From: a virus
DNA length: 42,849 nucleotides
IMG/VR virus record: IMGVR_UViG_3300030406_001002
Coordinates: 1-42,849 of that record
Reading direction: 5' to 3' (one strand)
This document shows positions 35,254-41,106 of the stretch, in pieces. Numbering within the stretch: position 1 is the first letter of the stretch; each line of letters opens with the position of its first letter. The position numbers and the translations under genes are program-made. The notes beneath the pieces were generated by a model. The model ran no database searches, was not told where the DNA came from, and saw only the letters and a program-made list of their open reading frames with translations.

Positions 35254-35277
35254 GAGACAGAAATGAGATTAGATAGT

Positions 35278-35507
35278 GTTCCCACGTTCCTAGTGTGTAC
35301 CACCTTCCTTACAAACTTACCTGAGCTATATATATACCCTATATATCCCTATCTCTATATTTATATATAAAAACATAGGAACATAGGGAACATATAGTAA
35401 GAAGATAGATGGCTAGGGATTTTTGAGCGTTCCCACCCGTAGGAACAGAGGAGGGAACAGGAGGGAACTTACAACTTTTGCAAGTTCCAAACCCACTTAG
35501 GTGTTCC
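35278..35507. other. Putative replication origin: GGAAC/GTTCC iteron cluster around an AT-rich tract
   Basis: Ten copies of GTTCC or GGAAC (often GGGAAC) lie in 230 bp, where about 0.5 would be expected by chance. Starts are 35278, 35286, 35378, 35387, 35429, 35442, 35454, 35464, 35484 and 35503. Between 35325 and 35376 lies a strongly AT-rich stretch of TATATA and similar steps, which could unwind easily. The site sits between the primase-helicase gene and the packaging genes and has no gene of its own. It may also hold the promoter of the late operon. A plain regulatory cluster is the alternative. Confidence 0.5.
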
Positions 35508-37508
35508 CTCAACTCTTTTTTTCTTTCTCTCATACTTCAAACTTTTGAGAATAGATGAGACGGTCATGGTGTCGGATTTTGTTTGACGTTCCACTGGTTT
35601 TTCGATTGCTTCGGTAAGTAGTTTTTCAATGGTTATATCGGTACTTTGATTAACAGGATTATTCAACCATTGGTTGATAACGGTTAGCCAAGGCGAGTCA
35701 ACCATGTAACCTAAATTCTCTTTTTCGATCTGATTTTCCTGTTCAAAGGTTAGGAAATGTGACTCTTTATTTTTCCAAGCTTGAACGGCTGCGGCCCATA
35801 TTGCATCACGTTCTAACTGGAGTGAATCAAGATCAATGGATGTAGCGGTGCAAGGAATAACATGAAAACGTCTGTTGCCAGTGTCATCAAATAACAAACC
35901 TGATTCTTTATTAGAGGAACCAACGATAATGCCAGAACGAGGCCATTCTTCTACCGCTTTACCGTAAGGAACCCGTAAGAAATCGGTAGCACGAGATAAA
36001 AAAGATTTAATATGACCAGCGTGTTTTCTAGATGTGATCGAATCTAATTCGGCCCATTCCATTCCCCATGATCTGTGCAAAGTCAAGATCGAATCTTTTG
36101 AAGAGATGTCATCAAGAGCGTCCGAGAAAAAGGGGCCAAAGAGCGTTTGCCAAAAGGAAGATTTTTTTATCCCCTGCTTCCCCTGAAGAACAGTTGCAGA
36201 ATCATGTTTACAGCCAGGAAGATAAACTCTCCTTACGGCGTTTATCAGAGTTACCTTAAGCATTGCATCGTAGATTGTTGGTTCATCAATAGATGCGTCT
36301 TGCGGTCTGAGATATGTTGTTGCTAATCGGTCAATATATGTAGGTTCAACTTCAGAAGAAACGTGATCTAAATAAAGTTTGACGGGATTATATTTGTTTT
36401 CATGTGCAACTTTGAGAAGGCAATCTATCGCCATTTGCTTTTCGACTTTGTAACCAAGTTCGGCGAGCGTCAAATAAAACAGCTCGATATTTTTTATTAC
36501 TTCACCATCCATTTCGATTGAATGTGAAAAGGTATTGAAGCGAATCTCTTGTTTTGACTTTCGTAGGAATGAAATTAATTCTTGTGATGTGAGCTGTTCA
36601 AGTTTTGAAGGGATCGGAGTTGTTTGCTCTGTTTGAGCAGGAACAACAGAATCAGGAAAAACGCGAGGAGGCGGAGTCCAACCATCTTCTTTAGCAAATT
36701 TTTGAAGTGTACCGAGCGAGATCCCAGAGCGTTTAAAAGAATCCCATTTCTTTGCACATTCTCCTGGTTTATATTTGCTGTTCTTACTTGAAAGTTCTTC
36801 CCAATCTCCGAGAAGTGAATCACCTGCGGAGTGAGCCGCCATTCCAATTTTCAACCATTGGTCGTAGTCATCTATTCGGCTTGGGTTGATGGATTGGAGA
36901 AGAGAACGGGCTTTATCGATGTCTGAGTTAAAAACTTCAACGGGTGCAGTTTTGTTTTTCTTCTTAGGTTCCATCATCTTTTTGATAATGGCTAAAGGAG
37001 CTTCTGCTATTTCAAGATCATCAGGCGAGCGTCCATCCATCCAACGGTATCCATCAGTTGTTGGATGTTTACCAGAGACAATTGATTGCGCTCCATCCCA
37101 CCTGAGTTCGATCTGTTCAACGGAGCCATCAGAATCTTTAACGCCTGTTTGAAATTTGCGTGTTTTTATTTTCGACCAATATTTTTCTGGGATTTTGTAG
37201 ATGAGTTGAAAACGACCAACACGGCCAGAAGTGACCATCCAAGAAGGAGGTAAAGAGCCGACAGAAAATCCCCACTCGGTGAGGACTTCTGAAGCGGATT
37301 GACCATCGTGATCTAAGAAGAGAAGACCGCCGCTAGGAGTACCACAGCAAACACCAATACCAGTTGACCTACCTGCTGTAATTTCTTTAAATAGTTGTGA
37401 ACGGGTTAAAGGATTTTTCTGCCAATCATTTTGATAGGGTCTTTTATTTTGAACGGCGACAAACCGCCATTCCTTCGGCAAGCGAAGAATTTCATCTTTA
37501 ATTGACAT
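35469..37508 (-). CDS. Primase-polymerase/VirE-type helicase (679 aa)
   Basis: The N-terminal domain has the prim-pol pattern, with TGIGVCCGTPSGG (49-61) followed by LLFLDHDG carrying the catalytic Asp pair (66, 68). Residues 214-256 (YDQWLKIGMAAHSAG through YKPGECAKKW) resemble the PriCT domain. Residues 430-560 are a VirE/D5-like ATPase: Walker A GKQGIKKS at 443-450, acidic GMEWAELD at 482-489, and arginine-containing TGNRRFHVI at 543-551. One protein could thus prime and unwind DNA at the nearby candidate origin. No DNA polymerase gene is visible elsewhere. Confidence 0.88.
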   Translation of the reverse strand: MSIKDEILRLPKEWRFVAVQNKRPYQNDWQKNPLTRSQLFKEITAGRSTGIGVCCGTPSGGLLFLDHDGQSASEVLTEWGFSVGSLPPSWMVTSGRVGRFQLIYKIPEKYWSKIKTRKFQTGVKDSDGSVEQIELRWDGAQSIVSGKHPTTDGYRWMDGRSPDDLEIAEAPLAIIKKMMEPKKKNKTAPVEVFNSDIDKARSLLQSINPSRIDDYDQWLKIGMAAHSAGDSLLGDWEELSSKNSKYKPGECAKKWDSFKRSGISLGTLQKFAKEDGWTPPPRVFPDSVVPAQTEQTTPIPSKLEQLTSQELISFLRKSKQEIRFNTFSHSIEMDGEVIKNIELFYLTLAELGYKVEKQMAIDCLLKVAHENKYNPVKLYLDHVSSEVEPTYIDRLATTYLRPQDASIDEPTIYDAMLKVTLINAVRRVYLPGCKHDSATVLQGKQGIKKSSFWQTLFGPFFSDALDDISSKDSILTLHRSWGMEWAELDSITSRKHAGHIKSFLSRATDFLRVPYGKAVEEWPRSGIIVGSSNKESGLLFDDTGNRRFHVIPCTATSIDLDSLQLERDAIWAAAVQAWKNKESHFLTFEQENQIEKENLGYMVDSPWLTVINQWLNNPVNQSTDITIEKLLTEAIEKPVERQTKSDTMTVSSILKSLKYERKKKRVEGTPKWVWNLQKL

Positions 37509-37512
37509 TGGA

Positions 37513-37689
37513 TTATCTAGTTAACTGAGATTCGTAAGCGTCAAGCTGCTTTTTAGTCATTGCATGACGGATAATTGTTCTGATGAAACCAGCTCTAGAA
37601 AGTTCAGGCGGTTTATTTTCGTCTAACCATTTAATTTGTTCTTTCGTTAGCTGAGTGTTGATTGTCTTCAGTTCGATGTCTAAGTCCAC
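37513..37689 (-). CDS. Ribbon-helix-helix regulator (58 aa), GTG start
   Basis: The 58-residue frame (VDLDIELKTINTQLTKEQIK) shows the ribbon-helix-helix order: a polar beta strand, a helix (TKEQIKWLDEN), a turn, and a second helix (LSRAGFIRTIIRHAMTKKQ). That is the fold of CopG/Arc/MetJ-type repressors. No ATG exists in the frame and the GTG at 37689 is the best start. The stop is 4 bases before the primase ATG, so the two are one operon. The gene starts next to the nested inverted repeats at 37691-37740 and probably controls both directions. Confidence 0.7.
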   Translation of the reverse strand: MDLDIELKTINTQLTKEQIKWLDENKPPELSRAGFIRTIIRHAMTKKQLDAYESQLTR

Positions 37690-37690
37690 T

Positions 37691-37740
37691 GGGGTTGCTT
37701 TGGTAGTAGATATGTGTAAGATACCACTAAATCCAACCCC
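37691..37740. promoter_or_regulatory. Divergent control region with nested inverted repeats
   Basis: GGGGTTG (37691-37697) is repeated inverted as CAACCCC (37734-37740). TGGTA (37701-37705) and TACCA (37722-37726) lie inside. The 55-bp gap separates the ribbon-helix-helix gene (minus) from the helicase gene (plus), so this is where a repressor and two opposed promoters should act. A TAAGAT hexamer at 37717-37722 could be a plus-strand -10 element. Confidence 0.5.
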
Positions 37741-37744
37741 GTCA

Positions 37745-39037
37745 ATGATTCAACTCAGAGAGTATCAAAAAGAGGCAGCCGATAAGTTGTATTGGTTACT
37801 CGCACGAAAACAGTTTGCTTATCTTATGGGTGAGGTAAGGACTGGCAAAACCTTGACCGCTTTAAGTTTGATCGAACGGTTAGGCATCCAACGGTGTTTA
37901 TTAGTGACAAAGAAAAAAGCAATCCCAAGCATTGAAAAAGATGCCAAAGCTTTAGGACTGCAAGATAAAGTTTTAATTATTAATTATGAACGGTTGCCCA
38001 AAGTGGCGTGGACATTTTGGCAGTTATTGATTGTTGATGAAGCACACTCCATTGGTGCGTATCCAAAACCAAGTGGAAGATGGAAGAACTTAAGACAGAT
38101 GAGTTATGAAAAGGTGCTCTTAATGAGCGGTACGGCATCACCAGAATCTTATTCACAGCTCTACCACCAGATGACATTGCACCGTCCAGTCTGGGCGCAG
38201 TACAAAAATTTTTACGAGTGGGCTAAAAAAGGTTATGTCGATATTGGTCAGAAATATGTTGGAACAGGTCAAACAGTTAACGATTACTCCAACGCTAATA
38301 AAGAATTAATTTTGAAAGATATTGATCCGTATGTTGTACGGATGACTCAAGAAGATGCAGGGTTTGAGACGAAGATTGATGAAGCTGTCCGATATGTAGA
38401 GATGAACGAAACAACGTATGGATTAGCTCAAGATATTATTGATGATGGAATATCTACTCTTGAAGGTCAAACTATTCTTGCCGATACGGGAGCAAAGAAA
38501 CTAAGCAAATTAAAACAGCTTTACTGTGGAACGGTTATTCCAGAAGAAAGCGGTAAGGGAATTATTTTTGATCGGTCAAAAGCTGAGTACATCAAGCAAC
38601 GATATGGAAACCATAAGCTTGCAATTATGTACTGCTATGAAGCAGAACGAAAAATGCTCTATGAAGCGTTTCCTAATGCAACCGATAGTCCAGAAGAATT
38701 TAATGCAAACAAGGATGCTGTTTTTATTGGGCAGGTAAGAGCCAGCCGTGAGGGAGTGAATTTAAGTAGTGCAACGTATCTTGTTTTTCTGGGCGTTGAC
38801 TTTGCAGCACTCTCGTACCTCCAAGCAAGAGATCGAGCGAGCTTCCTGGGGCGTGACACCCCGCCTAGAATTAGATATATATTTGCGGCCAATGGAATTG
38901 AAAGTCGAGTTTATCGAACAGTCAGAAAGAAAGAAAATTTCACGATCAGTCATTACAACAAGGTCCGAGGCGAATTATCAAGCGAAGCTGGTGAAAAAAT
39001 ACGAGAAAGACGGTTACGAGGTGATCAAGCTGCTTAA
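37745..39037 (+). CDS. DEAH-box SF2 helicase (430 aa)
   Basis: The start is the ATG at 37745 (MIQLREYQKEAADKLYWLLA); an upstream TTG at 37655 would add 30 residues and is unlikely. It has the Q-motif-like LREYQ, Walker A GEVRTGKT (29-36), DEAH (98-101), the SGTAS motif (128-132), and a second helicase domain with REGVNLSSATYLVFL and ARDRASFLGR, where an arginine finger is expected. This is the phage SNF2/Rad54-like helicase type often linked to a VRR-NUC gene. Its last 146 nt also encode the start of the nuclease. Confidence 0.88.
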   Translation: MIQLREYQKEAADKLYWLLARKQFAYLMGEVRTGKTLTALSLIERLGIQRCLLVTKKKAIPSIEKDAKALGLQDKVLIINYERLPKVAWTFWQLLIVDEAHSIGAYPKPSGRWKNLRQMSYEKVLLMSGTASPESYSQLYHQMTLHRPVWAQYKNFYEWAKKGYVDIGQKYVGTGQTVNDYSNANKELILKDIDPYVVRMTQEDAGFETKIDEAVRYVEMNETTYGLAQDIIDDGISTLEGQTILADTGAKKLSKLKQLYCGTVIPEESGKGIIFDRSKAEYIKQRYGNHKLAIMYCYEAERKMLYEAFPNATDSPEEFNANKDAVFIGQVRASREGVNLSSATYLVFLGVDFAALSYLQARDRASFLGRDTPPRIRYIFAANGIESRVYRTVRKKENFTISHYNKVRGELSSEAGEKIRERRLRGDQAA

Positions 39038-39267: not shown

Positions 39268-39296
39268 TAAGGGTGGCTGGCGGCTGCCCTTATTTC
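39268..39296 (+). terminator. Intrinsic terminator of the helicase-nuclease operon
   Basis: TAAGGG (39268-39273) pairs with CCCTTA (39287-39292), with further G-C and G-U pairs inward. The arm is followed by TTTC. It ends the helicase-nuclease transcript about 65 bases past the stop. Confidence 0.7.
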
Positions 39297-39479
39297 ATGC
39301 TCGCAATTATTCTATCGACCAGAACGGTTTTTTTCACGTGGCTTTGAGTACCTGCTAACGGTTGTAACTGTCTATTAGAGAGTTGCATGAGACCAGCCCT
39401 GAAACCTTGAAGACCAACAGGGCTGCGATAAACGAAGGGAGAGCCAAGCCAATCAAGGAATTGTTTCATTTCGTAAAGA
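39297..39479 (+). other. Intergenic stretch upstream of promoter P1
   Basis: No convincing gene lies here. A 7-bp inverted repeat CAGCCCT (39394-39400) and AGGGCTG (39419-39425) encloses an 18-nt loop without a T run. A TTG-initiated frame from 39383 runs into the structured RNA and is not credible as a gene. The function of this spacer is unclear. Confidence 0.5.
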
Positions 39480-39511
39480 GGGATGTACAGGGGTGTATAG
39501 CCATGTATATA
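39480..39511 (+). promoter_or_regulatory. Early promoter P1 (repeat-based)
   Basis: -35 TGTACA (39484-39489) and -10 TATATA (39506-39511) are 16 bp apart. The spacer is GGGGTGTATAGCCATG. The sequence is made of 10-bp units GGGATGTACA, GGGGTGTATA and GCCATGTATA. Transcription should start near 39518, at the 5' end of the structured leader. Confidence 0.75.
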
Positions 39512-39517
39512 ATAAAA

Positions 39518-39785
39518 GAGTATCAGGCGGAACTGAGGGAGAAATCCTCAGAAAGCTCCTGGGGATCCAGGTAGAACTGGGTAAATCCTGCGGCAAGAGA
39601 GCCGCGTATTCTCCCGCTAAAAACGGGCAGGGGCATGGGCCGCAATCCATCGCTATTTAAACCTGATACGCGAAGGGGTTCCAAGTTCTACCGCATCCTG
39701 GCAACTGGTAGTGAAGCCCTACCCGTGATCTGGTAGCTCCAGCACGAACCAAAATCAGGATCGCAACCTGAATTAAATCCAACCC
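39518..39785 (+). ncRNA. Structured leader RNA with possible pseudoknot
   Basis: This ~265-nt stretch is GC-rich against an AT-rich genome and has no gene. Local stems: CTGAGG/CCTCAG (39533-39538/39546-39551), CCTGG/CCAGG, GCGGC/GCCGC and CCCG/CGGG. The last two are enclosed by CCTG (39587-39590) and CAGG (39628-39631), forming a multi-branch junction. Long-range pairs: GTATCAGG (39520-39527) with CCTGATAC (39662-39669), and GGTAGAACT (39570-39578) with AGTTCTACC (39684-39692). The first pair crosses the second, so a pseudoknot is predicted. It starts at P1 and ends just before a 59-residue membrane-protein gene. It could be a cis-acting sensor or a free RNA. I know no family that fits. Confidence 0.6.
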
Positions 39786-39794
39786 CATTTTGAT

Positions 39795-40204: not shown

Positions 40205-40228
40205 GCCCCGCTAGTCGGGGCTTTTTTA
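40205..40228 (+). terminator. Intrinsic terminator of the P1 cassette
   Basis: The 6-bp stem GCCCCG (40205-40210) and CGGGGC (40216-40221) with loop CTAGT is followed by TTTTTT. It ends the P1 unit before promoter P2 begins at 40245. Confidence 0.9.
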
Positions 40229-40244
40229 TTGCCAATTTGTAACA

Positions 40245-40276
40245 GGGGTGGACAGGGGTGTATTGAGGTGTATAAT
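40245..40276 (+). promoter_or_regulatory. Early promoter P2 (repeat-based)
   Basis: -35 TGGACA (40249-40254) and -10 TATAAT (40271-40276), spacing 16 bp. Three 10-bp units are GGGGTGGACA, GGGGTGTATT and GAGGTGTATA. It lies 26 bases before the 94-residue gene. Confidence 0.85.
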
Positions 40277-40848: not shown

Positions 40849-40879
40849 ACATAGACAGGGGTGTATAGGGGTGTATAAT
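40848..40879 (+). promoter_or_regulatory. Early promoter P3 (repeat-based)
   Basis: -35 TAGACA (40852-40857) and -10 TATAAT (40874-40879), spacing 16 bp. Two perfect GGGGTGTATA units (40858-40877) fill the spacer and the start of the -10. It drives the 44-residue gene that begins 28 bases downstream. Confidence 0.85.
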
Positions 40880-41064: not shown

Positions 41065-41106
41065 GAGGTGTATAGAGGTTGACAGGGGTGTATAGGGATG
41101 TATAAT
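41065..41106 (+). promoter_or_regulatory. Early promoter P4 (repeat-based), recombination operon
   Basis: -35 TTGACA (41079-41084) and -10 TATAAT (41101-41106), spacing 16 bp. Four 10-bp units follow one another exactly: GAGGTGTATA, GAGGTTGACA, GGGGTGTATA and GGGATGTATA. It has the best consensus match of the four and precedes the recombination genes. Confidence 0.9.

Follow-up and report, generated by a model that had tools for sequence, protein, structure and literature searches.

A modular structured RNA inserted at the predicted transcription start of an accessory transcript in probable picocyanobacterial phages

INTRODUCTION

Both early operons of phage HK022 contain put, an RNA of ~70 nt that forms two stem-loops and acts on the zinc-binding domain of the RNA polymerase β΄ subunit (PMC9378689). 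Among T4-like marine cyanophages, the structured motifs manA and wcaG (RF01745 and RF01761) lie in probable 5΄ UTRs upstream of metabolic genes (PMC2864571).

Here, we analyzed a viral sequence of 42,849 nt from IMG/VR (the window; coordinates count from its first nucleotide), for which a preliminary description had proposed a highly structured, probably pseudoknotted leader RNA downstream of an early promoter. We report that positions 39520–39777 encode a structured non-coding RNA that is real and previously uncatalogued, and we discuss its fold, its distribution among related phages and its possible function. The features of the locus are listed in Table 1, in which loci of related contigs carry L numbers.

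Table 1. Coordinates of the RNA, its domains and associated features
Feature	Position	Strand	Remark
Promoter TGTACA, 18-nt spacer, TATAAT	39484..39513	+	10/12 match; overlaps GGTGTATAG-type iterated motifs
Structured RNA, long type	39520..39777	+	Whole family member as delimited by covariance model
Constant 5΄ domain	39520..39561	+	Tail GUAUC, helix P1, inner hairpin CTGAGG/CCTCAG, GNNA-type loop
P2 5΄ strand GGGAT	39562..39566	+	Pairs with ATCCT 39695-39699
Exchangeable central domain, long type	39567..39694	+	Hairpins GCGGC/GCCGC 39590-39605, CCCG/CGGG 39613-39627, ATGG/CCAT 39635-39650
Constant 3΄ domain	39695..39777	+	P2 3΄ strand, GGCAACTGG, three hairpins
Continuation of the native leader 3΄ of the insert (AACCCCATTTTGAT)	39780..39794	+	Same in RNA-less relatives
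Small ORF, 59 aa	39795..39974	+	First gene of RNA-led unit; charged N-terminal part and C-terminal hydrophobic segment
Second small ORF, 73 aa	39977..40198	+	No Pfam match; no known family
Intrinsic terminator, GCCCCGCTAGTCGGGGC-TTTTTT	40205..40231	+	Ends RNA-led unit
Second ncRNA cassette	L039:3430-3600, L047:1660-1860, L050:4150-4380, L052:570-760, L053:3430-3620, L055:1530-1720, L058:2480-2710, L007:6700-6940, L008:6890-7130		

RESULTS

Composition, folding energy and comparison with known RNA families

The GC content of positions 39520–39777 was 53.1%, compared with 40.4% for the window, and a scan of the whole window found only 0.14% of 258-nt windows to be equally GC-rich. The folding energy was unremarkable taken alone (z of approximately –2.1 to –2.4); when the 258-nt stretches of the window were scanned, the segment ranked 40th of 399 by z and second by raw energy. 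Because thermodynamics alone would not single it out, the case for an RNA rests on its homologues. A coding origin was rejected, as no frame fits the segment and the members differ by indels of 1–3 nt and by the exchange of a whole domain. The preliminary description of a structured, GC-rich, non-coding segment is thus borne out, and all of the complementary segments that it listed exist.

It had also recognized no matching RNA family, in agreement with our searches: Rfam 15 gave no match at the gathering threshold in the window, and none of relevance at E ≤ 10 for the long-type or the short-type RNA described below. Riboswitches, group I and group II introns, 6S RNA, tmRNA, HEARO, GOLLD, manA and wcaG were among the families covered. 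A match to mir-14 was attributed to chance, being on the minus strand and outside the RNA, and ARAGORN gave no support for a tRNA or tmRNA. A self-splicing intron was likewise rejected, since Rfam yielded no match and an RNA that starts at +1 has no upstream exon.

The strongest-folding stretch of the window was observed on the minus strand at 35261–35518 (z –6.3 to –8.3, –92 kcal/mol). It is flanked by the primase/helicase genes and the terminase-side genes, carries repeated GGGAAC/GTTCCC and an AT-rich palindrome, and is possibly a replication origin or another structured RNA.

Family members and probable hosts

We fetched 27 IMG/VR loci via the neighboring helicase ORF and compared them by blastn, and obtained further members by pattern scans with conserved 3΄ and 5΄ segments and by a RusA-based search. 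The resulting family comprises 14 distinct members in IMG/VR contigs, namely the window and 13 homologues, with one RNA copy per contig. Four are of a long type (window, L029, L033 and L035) and 10 are of a short type (L005, L014, L009, L030, L032, L036, L037, L059, L060 and L061, of which L009 is cut at the contig end), and the length of the RNA ranges from ~195 nt in the short type to 258 nt in the window. A covariance model built from short-type relatives only (R1) recovered the window RNA at exactly 39520–39777 (cmsearch, 128 bits, E = 2.3e-35), and found every long member with E values of 1e-28 to 1e-35.

A final scan with a different 3΄ pattern yielded chance matches only and no new member. 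The pattern CTGGTAGCTCCAG in L066–L069 was similarly considered a chance occurrence, having no covariance-model support, and a resemblance to RNase P upstream of the L030 RNA (GGGGAAAGTCCGGGG) was discarded because it lies within a RusA-like ORF. The RNA was absent from four cultured relatives, and no family member was found among the searched public records of phages and plasmids or, by pattern search, in 84,980 GTDB species genomes. The terminase shares 53% identity with its counterparts in the siphoviruses MED4-184 and MED4-117 of Prochlorococcus and KBS-S-2A and S-H1 of Synechococcus, and the hosts of the RNA-bearing phages are therefore very probably marine picocyanobacteria.

The fold is conserved with compensatory changes

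To evaluate the shared fold, we aligned the common ends of 13 sequences, joining the excerpts with an AAAA linker (alignment A3). In this shared core, 97% of cells could pair, and 11 pairs were changed on both sides. The covariation score was 0.277, compared with 0.129 in shuffled alignments, and was reached by none of 500 shuffles; sliding the partners reduced it to 0.013–0.087. The long set alone contained 10 changed pairs and the short set alone eight, and both agreed with the fold of the shared core. As few and related sequences enter these counts, they establish conservation of the fold but not of every pair. The aligned members thus show a predicted fold conserved with compensatory changes beyond chance. 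The preliminary description had named such changes in homologous contigs beforehand as an observation on which its proposal would stand or fall; they were found, and the RNA stands.

In the 5΄ domain, helix P1 (CAGG 39524–39527 with CCTG 39558–39561) covaries, and A3 pairs 6–42 (G-C/A-U), 15–32 (C-G/U-A), 17–30 (A-U/G-C) and 12–37 (C-G/G-C) are changed. In the long-range helix P2, by which the central domain is closed, four of the five pairs are changed on both sides among the 13 sequences. Covarying pairs were also found in every hairpin of the 3΄ domain, that is, GGTAG/CTACC at 39707–39723, CGTG..CTGG/CCAG..CACG at 39724–39746 and CAGG/CCTG at 39756–39770, where the helices end ~25 nt before the ATG of the downstream ORF. 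Within the long-type central domain, CCTGATACGCGAAGGGGTT is conserved, and the hairpin ATGG/CCAT is replaced by AAGG/CCTT, which is a compensatory change.

A crossing helix is not required

The preliminary description held that two long-range helices cross each other and require a pseudoknot. One of these, GGTAGAAC (39570–39577) with GTTCTACC (39685–39692), is invariant and, as it continues the covarying P2, is probably a real extension of that helix. The other, GTATCAGG (39520–39527) with CCTGATAC (39662–39669), consists of seven invariant pairs and one A-U/G-U wobble, and no compensatory change in it was found among the long members. The comparative data instead favor nested P1 and P2, so that the requirement for a pseudoknot is not upheld. 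The three-way junction closed by CCTG/CAGG can form, as had been proposed, but is one of several near-isoenergetic pairings.

It could still be argued that GTATCAGG/CCTGATAC acts as a functional crossing helix or as a conformational switch against P1. The complement is kept in all four long members, with one G-U pair; every long member has the 5΄ tail GTATC, the tail of every short member reads GTAAC, and the short members lack GATAC and offer no possible partner for GTAAC; and alternative long-type folds lie within a few kcal/mol of each other, such that thermodynamic folding cannot choose among them. However, besides the missing compensatory change, the AGG/CCT part of the helix competes with the covarying P1, an internal GUAU...CAGG is able to pair with CCUGAUAC as well, and the crossing helix is absent from the short type. 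We accordingly regard this reading, which is a statement on structure and overlaps all of the functional explanations considered below, as unlikely; a GUAUC/GAUAC pseudoknot of 4–5 bp at most is possible in the long type only.

The RNA begins at the predicted transcription start

As had been claimed, σ70-like boxes of a promoter precede the RNA (39484–39489 and 39508–39513), and GGTGTATAG, which is also found at downstream promoters, occurs at 39492. A –10 box is kept in all RNA-bearing relatives, and in 14/14 members exactly 6 nt separate the first conserved G from a preceding –10-like hexamer (5–6 of 6 matches). The promoters themselves differ, the window group having repeats of the GGTGTATAG type and the RusA group a palindrome of the GGGTCAACCC type. 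Since the spacing is constant across several promoter sequences, the 5΄ end of the RNA (G39520) is very probably the +1 nucleotide, as predicted in the preliminary description. RNA-less relatives have a GTC start at the same distance from the –10 box (GTCGAGAGACACCCAATTG in L055 and similarly in L057, GTCAATTCGACCC in L042 and GTCAACAACCCC in L012).

In the accessory region, three or more other promoters (including those at 40249–40276, 40852–40879 and 41067–41106) carry GGTGTATAG-type repeats that overlap the –35/–10 region, and these repeats are probably operators for one regulator.

Optional insertion and exchange of the central domain

Comparison by blastn revealed that most close relatives lack positions 39520–39779 and have the promoter joined to the small ORF exactly at the predicted start site. 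Such empty sites were found in L004, L006, L011, L012, L013 and L018 (TATAATAAGGAGGTCAACAACCCCATTTTGATATGACATC and similar). In the RusA group, the leader hairpin is kept 3΄ of the RNA, as GCC-GAGA-GGC versus GTC-GAGA-GAC at empty sites. The empty sites and the retained leader indicate that the RNA has been placed, in two different genomic contexts, between +1 and a leader that already existed, and these alignments show it to be optional and placed exactly at the predicted start.

The central domains of the two types are only 39–44% identical, whereas both ends are 70–100% identical. For example, the window and L014 have identical 3΄ domains (100%) and central domains of 39% identity, and L035 (long) and L030 (short) are 93% identical upstream, 97% in the 3΄ domain and 42% in the center. 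MTSS-type ORFs follow RNAs of either type, and the short type is also found ahead of MISQ-type ORFs. From these patterns, the central domain exists as two unrelated types that have been exchanged independently of the promoter, the 3΄ domain and the downstream ORF. Constant flanks, unrelated centers and independent ORFs indicate that the center was swapped by recombination at the conserved flanks; such an arrangement would be expected if the center recognizes something variable.

The downstream unit and the contents of the accessory slot

Past the replication genes lies an accessory region of small genes, which the RNA opens. We found no terminator belonging to the RNA itself, and an ORF starts ~22–45 nt after the RNA in every complete member. 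The 59-aa ORF, for which Pfam gave no match, is of a type also present in RNA-less relatives. In relatives, the slot after RusA contains a C5-cytosine or N4/N6 DNA methyltransferase (L048 and L056) or a second self-contained ncRNA cassette (L039, L052, L053, L055, L058 and L007/L008). The window's own RNA slot is occupied in L003 (3232–4056) and L016 by a 274-aa ORF instead, with helix-turn-helix and sigma70 region-4-like matches. These contents support, but do not prove, an accessory, host-interaction role of the RNA.

The second cassette has the core CTCCGCRC..GATAMGYGTCAG, often followed by ..GAGCTGCGATC, together with its own promoter and a T-run, and at least two 3΄ variants occur on one 5΄ module. 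Its copy in L053 had no Rfam match. A TGCGA motif of this cassette is the complement of the TCGCA loop, which is invariant in the RNA family described here.

Two further observations concern the surrounding genes. A small conserved protein without an assigned family, MxxFLDWLGSxFVYRSP..., recurs near the RNA at differing positions and strands (39290–39469 on the minus strand of the window, L035:3924–4118, L030:5254–5448 and L059:3039–3233). At 37655–37748, five relatives (L010, L012, L013, L014 and L017) carry inserts of ~0.2–0.55 kb; because these sit right before helicase residue 32, they suggest that translation of the helicase actually starts at the ATG near 37748, and point to the divergent intergenic spot as another insertion slot.

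DISCUSSION

We tentatively favor the view that the RNA is a trans-acting accessory RNA, optional and modular, at the 5΄ end of an early or accessory transcript. Transcription would begin at G39520 and the first ~250 nt would fold, with the P1 hairpin domain and the three 3΄ hairpins, both constant, framing a P2-closed central domain of either type. The molecule would then act as RNA, most likely in trans, either once the leader has been cleaved off or while it is still part of the mRNA. The constant ends may serve as a scaffold, and the exchangeable center may recognize a host factor that varies, perhaps a defense. Such an accessory host-interaction RNA would occupy the slot that holds DNA methyltransferases or another ncRNA in relatives. 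The occurrence of one optional copy per contig, not tied to one gene, is consistent with this view; however, the close downstream ORF and the lack of an own terminator would fit a cis-acting leader equally well, and the anti-defense idea draws on position and domain exchange only. More speculatively, and in our estimation improbably, the RNA could serve counter-defense or host takeover without a protein, its recognition domain being exchangeable and its scaffold constant, and could have been inserted precisely at +1 of a phage promoter and diversified by swaps of the central domain between phages.

Control of a specific gene in cis is disfavored because the downstream ORFs vary and recur without the RNA, no terminator or RBS platform is present and many relatives lack the RNA altogether. 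A riboswitch-like or other gene-control leader, in which two aptamer types share one expression platform, would account for the constant 3΄ domain with an exchangeable center and for the position of the RNA, which is always 5΄ of an ORF, and manA and wcaG provide a precedent for 5΄-UTR motifs in cyanophages (PMC2864571). However, the plus-strand leader has no terminator hairpin with a U-run ahead of the ORF, and in it we found neither occlusion of the RBS nor helices that cover the start region. The downstream ORF is of more than one kind and occurs without the RNA, and Rfam provides no match, which together make this explanation quite improbable.

Picocyanobacterial phages depend on host RNA turnover, and a compact fold at +1 could in principle be a passive cap that stabilizes the mRNA 5΄ end against RNase E or RNase J. 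Yet short-type RNAs begin with four conserved, unpaired nucleotides, which would protect the 5΄ end poorly, and the strong conservation of loops and the exchange of the central domain exceed what such a cap needs. We therefore consider a stabilizing role very improbable.

By its absence from Rfam 15 the RNA family is new, and its kind, a structured phage leader or ncRNA of unknown function, is already known. To our knowledge, the open-access literature describes no phage leader RNA with insertion exactly at +1 of different promoters or with exchange of a central domain between constant ends. The family defined here is supported by covariation and missing from Rfam, and comprises 14 aligned members with defined domain borders. 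If the exchangeable domain recognizes a host factor, phages that infect the most abundant photosynthetic organisms of the ocean would possess a modular RNA tool.

Several described systems can be compared with the trans-acting accessory RNA that we favor. The HEARO/IscB omega RNA (RF02033) is similarly an optional structured insert of ~250–300 nt; it was rejected as a counterpart because the two ORFs of the RNA-led unit have no Pfam match and include no IscB/HNH ORF, the conserved scaffold begins at +1 and leaves no space for a 5΄ guide, and Rfam yielded no match. Like GOLLD and ROOL, the RNA is a complex phage-carried non-coding RNA of unknown function, but those are much larger, differ in structure and are not matched by it in Rfam. 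With manA and wcaG it shares the location of a structured RNA in a probable cyanophage 5΄ UTR, whereas their Rfam models do not match it.

HK022 put is likewise a structured phage RNA located shortly after an early promoter, on one transcript with early genes behind which terminators lie; putL closely follows PL and is built of adjacent stem-loops (PMC9378689). The nascent RNA of the window might similarly bind host RNA polymerase in cis and promote read-through of the terminators of accessory units. Its start at +1 of an early-type promoter, its independence of the identity of the downstream gene and the intrinsic terminator after the first ORFs (40205) are consistent with such a role, which we nevertheless consider rather unlikely. 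The next accessory units keep their own promoters, relatives of the same layout lack the RNA, and an exchangeable center would be unexpected if the partner were the conserved polymerase. Moreover, whereas put occurs in both early operons of HK022 and measures ~70 nt, the RNA described here is present as a single copy per contig at only one of approximately four promoters, and its 195–258 nt (roughly 250 nt in the long type and 195 nt in the short type) form at least six helices, including the long-range P2, around an exchangeable center.
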